Shown: positions 49,506 through 49,759 of the stretch, piece by piece
Layout of the letters: the number at the start of each line of letters is the position of its first letter
Numbering within the stretch: the stretch's first letter is position 1
NCBI GenBank assembly: GCA_900314585.1
Contig: OMVV01000005.1
Location: 1-51,107, forward strand
Length of the DNA stretch: 51,107 nucleotides
Reading direction: 5' to 3'
From: an uncultured Erysipelotrichaceae bacterium
Lineage (GTDB): Bacteria > Bacillota_I > Bacilli_A > RFN20 > CAG-826
The notes under the pieces: model-generated
Databases searched by the model: none
The model's input: only the letters and a program-made list of their open reading frames with translations
Told to the model about the DNA's origin: nothing
Position numbers and translations under genes: made by a program

Positions 49506-49615
49506 AAATTTATTATAACAAATTTTTAAACTTAGTAAACTCTCGACAAAGCAAAGTCGTTAAAACTCGGAACGGAGACCTCGTAATCTAAGCACAGAAA
49601 GCGAGGTGATGTCCA

Positions 49616-49705
49616 TTGAGAGACTTTCCAAAAGAAGTTTTAATACTTCTGAAGATTGCCTTGATTTGTCTCTTGTTATCTTTATTAGCTCTGCTTGTAA
49701 AATAA
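49616..49705 (+). CDS. 29-residue hydrophobic peptide, putative type I toxin 2
   Basis: The frame that matches its neighbours starts at TTG, 9 nt after GAGG. Residues: RDFPKEVLILLKIALICLLL then SLLALLVK. It shares the LxxALICLLxxLxxLL core with copy 3. An ATG/GTG pair just upstream opens a different, non-hydrophobic frame not found in the other copies, so I prefer TTG. The weak start plus a fully sequestered Shine-Dalgarno predict very low basal translation. Confidence 0.6.
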   Translation: MRDFPKEVLILLKIALICLLLSLLALLVK

Positions 49706-49759
49706 AAGAGCCTCCATGCATATTTAACCAGTAAGTGCTTGTGAGGACTCCGTTCTTCT
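49699..49759 (-). ncRNA. Putative antisense antitoxin RNA 2
   Basis: The best minus-strand promoter of the set: -35 TTGTTT (49794 to 49789), exactly 17 bp, -10 TATAAT (49771 to 49766). The RNA would start near 49759 with AGAACGGAGTCCTC and end in GAGTCCTC paired with GGAGGCTC (one mismatch), then UUUUAUUUU at 49707-49699. Confidence 0.6.

Follow-up and report, generated by a model that had tools for sequence, protein, structure and literature searches.

Three tandem modules of ~250 nt span positions 49293-50035 of the window (the whole stretch analysed here, 51,107 nt from an uncultured Erysipelotrichaceae bacterium), and each is predicted to form a type I toxin-antitoxin unit, probably run by an intramolecular strand-displacement switch. 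In the proposed mechanism, the CCTC arm of the leader would pair with the Shine-Dalgarno sequence (SD) during transcription and hide it, in line with covariation in type A modules and a computed closed state. The completed 3' tail would then pair with the leader, from the exposed toehold (GAACGGAG in module 2) on through the anti-SD arm and the hairpin loop. This pairing, backed by covariation, would compete the anti-SD off the SD, an opening that is computed, and we infer that it permits translation of the peptide. An antisense RNA, predicted to start from an extended -10 promoter beyond the tail, would be complementary to the tail and the segment preceding it, not to the leader or the SD. 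By keeping the tail in a duplex it would leave the leader folded on the SD, and this duplex would probably also expose the mRNA to RNase III. In other words, the tail would be the cis trigger of a toehold switch and the antitoxin a sponge for that trigger.

All modules share one order from 5' to 3': a hairpin, a leader, the SD, an open reading frame (ORF) for a hydrophobic peptide of 25-29 aa, and a 3' tail (Table 1). Those in the window have in common the 5' hairpin GAC-AAAGCAAA-GTC, the string TAAAACTCGGAACGGA, the CCTC anti-SD arm, the SD, the ORF, and a tail of the form GAGG..CTCCGTTC. The original prediction concerned positions 49570-49755, within the second module, and the pairings it described there were recovered at the very positions named, both that of ACCTCG with the SD and that of GAACGGAG plus CCTC with GAGG-A-CTCCGTTC (49743-49755). 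Modules 1 and 3 keep both options as well, through GAACGGA/TCCGTTC and through GAATGGAG/CTCCGTTC with one U.G, respectively. The pairing in module 2 is in fact longer than had been described, since the loop AAGCAC complements GTGCTT at the start of the tail. Likewise, TTGAACTA complements TAGTTCAA in module 1, and TTGGACTT complements AAGTCT.. with wobbles in module 3.

Table 1. Features of the three modules, in positions of the window
Module	Feature	Positions	Strand	Sequence and details	Support
1	5' hairpin	49295-49308	+		
1	Leader	49320-49342	+	toehold GAACGGA 49320-49326; anti-SD GCCTC 49330-49334; TTGAACTA 49335-49342	
1	SD	49357-49361	+	GGAGG	
1	ORF	49369-49446	+	ATG start; 25 aa peptide MEPLKKAISLIVLCLLLCLLILIFK	
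1	3' tail	49481-49501	+	TAGTTCAA (49481-49488)-TGGGCT-TCCGTTC (49495-49501)	
1	Predicted antisense RNA	49445-49505	-	TATAAT = complement of 49512-49517; U-run opposite 49445-49451	
2	5' hairpin, at predicted mRNA start	49545-49558	+	GAC-AAAGCAAA-GTC	stem kept by compensatory changes family-wide
2	Leader toehold	49570-49577	+	GAACGGAG; partner 49748-49755	covariation
2	Anti-SD arm	49578-49583	+	ACCTCG; partners SD 49602-49607 or tail GAGG 49743-49746	permutation tests
2	Hairpin-loop segment	49590-49595	+	AAGCAC; complement of tail GTGCTT 49735-49740	
2	SD	49602-49607	+	CGAGGT	
2	ORF	49616-49705	+	TTG start; 29 aa hydrophobic peptide MRDFPKEVLILLKIALICLLLSLLALLVK	
2	3' tail (proposed trigger)	49735-49755	+	GTGCTT-GT-GAGG-A-CTCCGTTC	
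2	Predicted antisense RNA	49704-49759	-	start ~49759; TATAAT = complement of 49766-49771; U-run end opposite A-run 49704-49707	
3	5' hairpin	49800-49813	+		
3	Leader	49825-49845	+	toehold GAATGGAG 49825-49832; anti-SD CCTC 49834-49837; TTGGACTT	
3	SD	49860-49864	+	GGAGG	
3	ORF	49874-49963	+	probable CTG start (no ATG/GTG/TTG at the start position); 29 aa peptide (M/L)KDDFKELIKLLRIALICLLICLIGLLMR	
3	3' tail	50000-50019	+	AAGTCT-GAGG-GA-CTCCGTTC (CTCCGTTC at 50012-50019)	
3	Predicted antisense RNA	49963-50023	-	TATAAT = complement of 50030-50035; -35 TTCACT	

The modules form a family of their own. A search with the leader pattern gave matches in 51 of the 224 genomes of one Bacilli family, distributed over 11 of 35 genera, and the reversed control pattern matched none of these 224. 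Extending the search to the order returned again 51 genomes, every one inside the same family, and no modules in 55 genomes of other families. Similar DNA occurs in 22 of 59 relatives (a few of these being marginal matches), and a scan of all species genomes yielded 52 contigs, all labelled Bacilli, Bacillales, or Erysipelotrichaceae and many of them from the rumen. The predicted toxin modules occur in gut and rumen Bacilli. Neither viral contigs nor plasmids gave a module match, so no mobile-element origin was seen there. From the matched loci, 74 distinct complete modules were extracted as the set for energy, ORF, and antisense counts; one match with two mismatches (G000:C29:18963) is not a module and was discarded.

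A peptide of 25-29 aa with hydrophobic character is encoded by 71 of the 74 modules, a size within the <60 aa of type I toxins. It begins with a charged head, continues with a hydrophobic core, and usually ends in K/R. The spacing from SD to start is 7-10 nt in 67 of these 71 modules, and the start codons are ATG (56), TTG (10), GTG (4), and CTG (1). No peptide matched Pfam or NCBIfam, including the TxpA/BsrG (Hol_Tox) family. Rfam gave nothing above the gathering score in the window, and around the modules only chance-level matches at E<1. Throughout the family, the stem of the 5' hairpin varies by compensation (GAC/GTC, GTC/GAC, GGC/GCC, GAG/CTC); its AAAG-rich loop and the AAAACTCG that follows are nearly invariant, also in the three window hairpins. 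Two degenerate modules, L012- (leader ~2090) and L112- (leader ~5189), have lost the start or acquired an early stop and retain leader and tail. Between flanks that enclose three modules in the window (49280-50045), the close relatives L106 and L120 hold one, an orthologue of module 1, which indicates that arrays gain or lose whole modules.

The 5'-3' pairing of leader and tail in the sense RNA is real, as judged from covariation and permutation tests. Across the 74 modules, the duplex of a leader with its own tail has a mean energy of -26.6 kcal/mol, vs -18.8 kcal/mol with swapped tails, swapping costing 7.7 kcal/mol on average. The sum over true pairings is -1966 vs -1401 for permuted ones (sd 31), which lies 18 standard deviations beyond 2000 permutations, and the toehold block alone reaches a z of -15 against the tail. 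In an alignment of 30 type A modules, 98.4% of the cells are paired and 10 of 17 pairs show double changes, namely 7 of 8 in the toehold, 2 of 3 in the 5' hairpin, and 1 of 6 in the SD hairpin. These pair counts cover the toehold, 5' hairpin, and SD helices only, as MAFFT lost the register between the SD mimic and the toehold blocks of the tail; for the anti-SD and loop blocks, permutation and anchored counts were used instead. None of 500 shuffles matched any measure of the 30-module structure, and the covariation score, 0.297 in register, did not exceed 0.086 once the partner was slid by 1-3 columns. On a tree built from the ORF alone, the eight toehold positions underwent at least 29 switches from one Watson-Crick pair to another. 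Examples of covarying leader/tail pairs are GAGCCAAAACCTCGC/GCGAGGTTTGGCTC, GAACGAATACCTTC/GAAGGATTCGTTC, and CAACGG/CCGTTG. For module 2 on its own, the full RNA folds 3.2 standard deviations below dinucleotide shuffles.

In each module, these complementary arms lie on both sides of the ORF as an inverted repeat, which might, in principle, serve the DNA itself, in recombination, inversion, or as a protein operator, with no RNA pairing involved. We regard this as extremely improbable and rejected it, because the non-Watson-Crick cells at toehold positions 1-7 comprise 17 G.U and a single A.C on the sense strand, an asymmetry showing that selection acts on the sense RNA and not on the antisense RNA or the DNA, and because modules of one genome carry different matched pairs. 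The bulges that interrupt the arms also fit RNA helices. Within arrays, the own tail is the best or tied for 26 of 34 leaders, so distinct pairs co-evolve side by side in one genome. For the leader of module 3, on the other hand, the tail of module 1 gives a stronger duplex than the tail of module 3 does, and a picture in cis only may therefore be incomplete.

The data further support that the anti-SD arm has two mutually exclusive partners, the SD and the 3' tail, as judged from covariation. The SD-like GAGG of the tail and its flanks match the arm as well as the SD does, or better. For anti-SD and SD, the pairing has a z of -5.1 within type A; for the anti-SD and loop block against the tail, with the toehold removed, z is -14.1 over all modules, -6.1 within type A, and -9.4 within type B (the loop-tail permutation of type B was left out owing to duplex failures that give artificial energies). 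Of the 30 type A modules, 20 have an A-T pair between the seventh base of the arm and the tail; this base seldom pairs with the SD, and never when it is an A. In type B modules such as L024 (CCTCTGG/CCAGAGG), L067, and L112, the extra pairs can be made only with the tail. Complementarity to the tail then continues through the arm into the loop of the SD hairpin (AAGCAC/GTGCTT, GGACAC/GTGTC, TCAGACT/AGTCTGA), and this pairing is mutually exclusive with the SD hairpin.

It is this continuation that bears on a reading in terms of structure plus decay, in which the toehold:tail helix merely closes the mRNA, for stability or as an RNase III substrate, the SD hairpin stays shut, and the antisense RNA acts only by making the 3' end a target of RNase III, as in txpA/RatA. 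There is precedent in txpA/RatA, bsrE/SR5, and yonT/SR6, where 3'-end duplex formation and RNase III leave SD access unchanged (PMC7430163, PMC5848175), and in the icaR mRNA, whose 5'-3' pairing is an RNase III substrate (PMC3868564); the toehold helix and the SD hairpin do coexist in the module 2 fold. Coexistence, however, leaves unexplained why arm and loop are kept as complements of the tail beyond the reach of the SD, and we consider this reading unlikely.

Computed energies point in the direction of opening. The median cost of opening the SD is 9.4 kcal/mol in the nascent 5' fragment, 8.6 at the stop codon, 6.0 with the tail lacking its last 8 nt, and 4.4 with the tail complete, in calculations that omit ribosomes, kinetics, and proteins; 11 ordinary genes of the window give 2.1 kcal/mol for reference. 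The effect depends on the matching tail, as the cost is 4.5 kcal/mol with the own tail, 6.1 with a foreign tail of the same type (p 1e-10), and 8.0 with a shuffled tail (p 7e-13). Masking the tail, in mimicry of the antisense RNA, raises the cost in 70 of 74 modules and restores 7.5-9.6 kcal/mol. For the window modules, costs with tail vs masked are 2.1 vs 10.9 (module 1), 5.4 vs 9.7 (module 2), and 3.8 vs 5.1 kcal/mol (module 3), and the computed probability of anti-SD:tail pairing is 0.44, 0.05, and 0.64, respectively. In these models, the effect of the tail on the SD is a shift and not a clean switch. In type A modules, the two states have nearly equal weight (0.44 vs 0.56), and the predicted SD accessibility of full-length RNA has a mean of 0.17 and a median of 0.12, so that the SD is still mostly paired. 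The full-length module 2 RNA keeps its SD hairpin mostly closed; its minimum-energy fold combines toehold:tail pairing with a closed SD hairpin, the GAGG of the tail lying on GAGCCTC by the stop codon. The original proposal that the tail frees the SD stands as to the covarying alternative pairings and the computed direction, from 5'-only to full-length RNA, but not as to full opening, the SD hairpin of module 2 staying closed in the computed fold.

This closed fold of module 2, with its closed ends, would suit an inert pool as in hok and AapA, where long-range 5'-3' closure is a known design and only the 3'-truncated form is translated (PMC6733600): pairing would silence the full-length mRNA and shield it from the antisense RNA until a nuclease removes the 3' end. 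We deem it unlikely here. The tail offers the anti-SD an SD-like GAGG as partner instead of covering the SD with an anti-SD of its own; removal of the tail is predicted to hide the SD more; and the predicted antisense RNA covers the tail, not the leader or the ORF start. Inhibitory tail pairing is also unlikely in general because an antitoxin that masks the tail would then relieve inhibition, which makes no sense unless it acts by decay alone. The tail as an anti-anti-SD and the antitoxin as its blocker remain the best-supported reading, activation and antitoxin action being the parts that we infer.

The antisense RNA is predicted to be ~60 nt long, to run on the minus strand, and to cover only the tail and a short segment before it, as expected of a type I system with an overlapping antisense gene. 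As a generic promoter and terminator scan missed most module signals, the antisense signals were counted by alignment. A -10 element of the form TGN-TATAAT lies just past the tail in 57 of 74 modules, and near the stop codon, at the antisense 3' end, 70 of 70 modules have a U-run of at least four and 67 of 70 a terminator hairpin. The suggestion that the antisense RNA traps the off state thus holds for its predicted position, exactly over the tail, and for the effect of masking; the effect on translation is a computed one. Since leader and tail form an inverted and not a direct repeat, the toehold of the leader recurs in the same sense in the predicted antisense RNA; the two RNA segments resemble rather than complement each other and cannot pair. 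In the tight array of L071 (+1700 to +2300), the antisense -10 (ATTATA) and the hairpin of the next module lie only ~17 nt apart, and sense and antisense -10 elements probably overlap in tight arrays (ATTATAAC). Three loci (L029, L075, L105) lack the tail and the antisense gene and have similar AATTAGATAA/AATTAAATAA-type sequence after the stop codon, near contig ends; possibly, insertion of a mobile element removed trigger and antitoxin together.

On the sense strand, a recognisable terminator follows within ~200 nt in only 6 of 45 last-in-array modules (not recognised in 39 of 45), although the lineage uses intrinsic terminators elsewhere, e.g., at 49221-49241. In the window, an XRE-type HTH gene fused to an alpha/beta hydrolase (50063-50923) begins at most ~20 nt after the array with no terminator in between, and such a gene may be co-transcribed with the modules or regulate them. 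An XRE-type HTH gene is placed this way in 9 of 60 loci (the window, L060, L061, L062, L066, L087, L106, L115, L120). The lack of a sense terminator in most modules, this HTH neighbour, and peptides foreign to Pfam and NCBIfam would suit a small membrane or leader peptide that is no toxin and regulates a neighbour, e.g., the downstream HTH gene. In most loci, however, the genes next to the modules are unrelated and lie on either strand. Arrays in tandem, with antisense genes of their own, are a typical layout of type I toxin-antitoxin loci, and 15 of 71 start codons are weak (TTG/GTG/CTG), so that a peptide of this kind appears quite unlikely. Judging from N-terminal sequences, the downstream gene resembles RNase Y in L069, L072, L074, L076, L112, and L114, and PNPase in L092 and L100; these RNA-decay neighbours possibly reflect chance or shared ancestry. 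Further upstream, the window encodes a lone 80-aa protein (47851-48093) with an N-terminus weakly similar to Phd/YefM antitoxins (TIGR01552, below cut-off) and a C-terminus that contains cysteine, as well as a secreted-looking protein of 1566 aa (42940-47640) whose peptidase region resembles clostripain at a level well below the cut-off of that family.

Compared with known systems, the predicted toxin-antitoxin modules are a variation on type I control, nearest in logic to TimP/TimR, BsrG/SR4, and RNAIII-hla. In Fst/RNAI-RNAII (par of pAD1), toxin mRNA and antisense RNA are likewise convergent and the SD lies in a 5' stem-loop. Repeats there let the antisense RNA bind the 5' region of the mRNA as well, a complementarity that the inverted repeat denies the predicted antisense RNA here. 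In TimP/TimR, the SD sits in a stable hairpin, an activating pseudoknot forms in the 5' UTR, and the antitoxin disrupts it (PMC11228461). In TimP/TimR, and by prediction here, the SD is locked, the full-length mRNA has an exclusive active fold that needs a second RNA pairing and no processing, and the antitoxin breaks the activating pairing rather than covering the SD. The two differ in that the TimP pseudoknot is confined to the 5' UTR, with TimR binding upstream on the mRNA, whereas here the pairing joins more than 20 nt of 5' leader and 3' tail, and the putative antisense RNA would be encoded in cis, across the tail. The TimP authors name the Gram-positive par and txpA as candidates for structural processing (PMC11228461). 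In BsrG/SR4 of the B. subtilis prophage SP-beta, the 180-nt SR4 binds the 3' end and extends the SD duplex from 4 to 8 bp (review PMC7430163). As predicted here, a small hydrophobic peptide of a Gram-positive is controlled by an antisense RNA that overlaps only the mRNA 3' end, and the SD becomes less accessible; the predicted antisense interval shows the 3'-end overlap of the TxpA/BsrG (Hol_Tox) type. The account of BsrG/SR4 in that review describes no 3'-tail opener, and the present modules lack a Hol_Tox/BsrG family match and come as ~250-nt units in arrays.

In hok/Sok and AapA/IsoA, too, the toxin mRNA has long-distance 5'-3' pairing and an early hairpin hides the SD during transcription. 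There, long-distance pairing is inhibitory and 3' trimming activates (PMC6733600), whereas the prediction for the present modules is that it activates and that the antisense RNA targets the pairing itself. The end of the predicted antisense RNA lies in the stop codon region, short of the leader, whereas the leader/mok region is the target in hok/Sok, and the computed cost (8.6 kcal/mol without the tail vs 4.4 with it) shows no SD opening upon 3' trimming as in AapA/IsoA. The suspicion that the logic is reversed relative to hok/AapA agrees with this computed direction, but TimP/TimR and BsrG/SR4 mean that it is not without precedent. In S. aureus, RNAIII activates hla in trans by an anti-antisense route (PMC8383071), pairing with sequence that would hide the ribosome site and so freeing it; the activator there is a trans-acting sRNA and the one proposed here is the 3' tail of the same mRNA. 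The 3' UTR of S. aureus icaR mRNA covers the SD and represses (PMC3868564), whereas the tail here covers the anti-SD. Our literature search, mostly of papers readable without subscription, brought up no described case of an mRNA that opens its SD with its own 3' tail and is targeted there by the antitoxin, which is weak evidence, and a search for toehold plus type I toxin gave no match.

Taken to its full extent, our reading would make these modules natural toehold switches in cis: by invading the leader hairpin, the 3' tail of each mRNA would let translation turn on only after complete transcription, with the antitoxin RNA as a dedicated trigger sponge and arrays holding several partly orthogonal, separately co-evolving pairs; we consider the chances for and against this wider claim to be evenly balanced. 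It touches on how Gram-positive type I toxin mRNAs avoid being translated while they are made and how an antitoxin confined to the 3' end can stop initiation. To these questions, the module family offers a covariation-backed answer that is testable with point mutants, and its many matched leader/tail pairs could serve as a natural collection of RNA switches.
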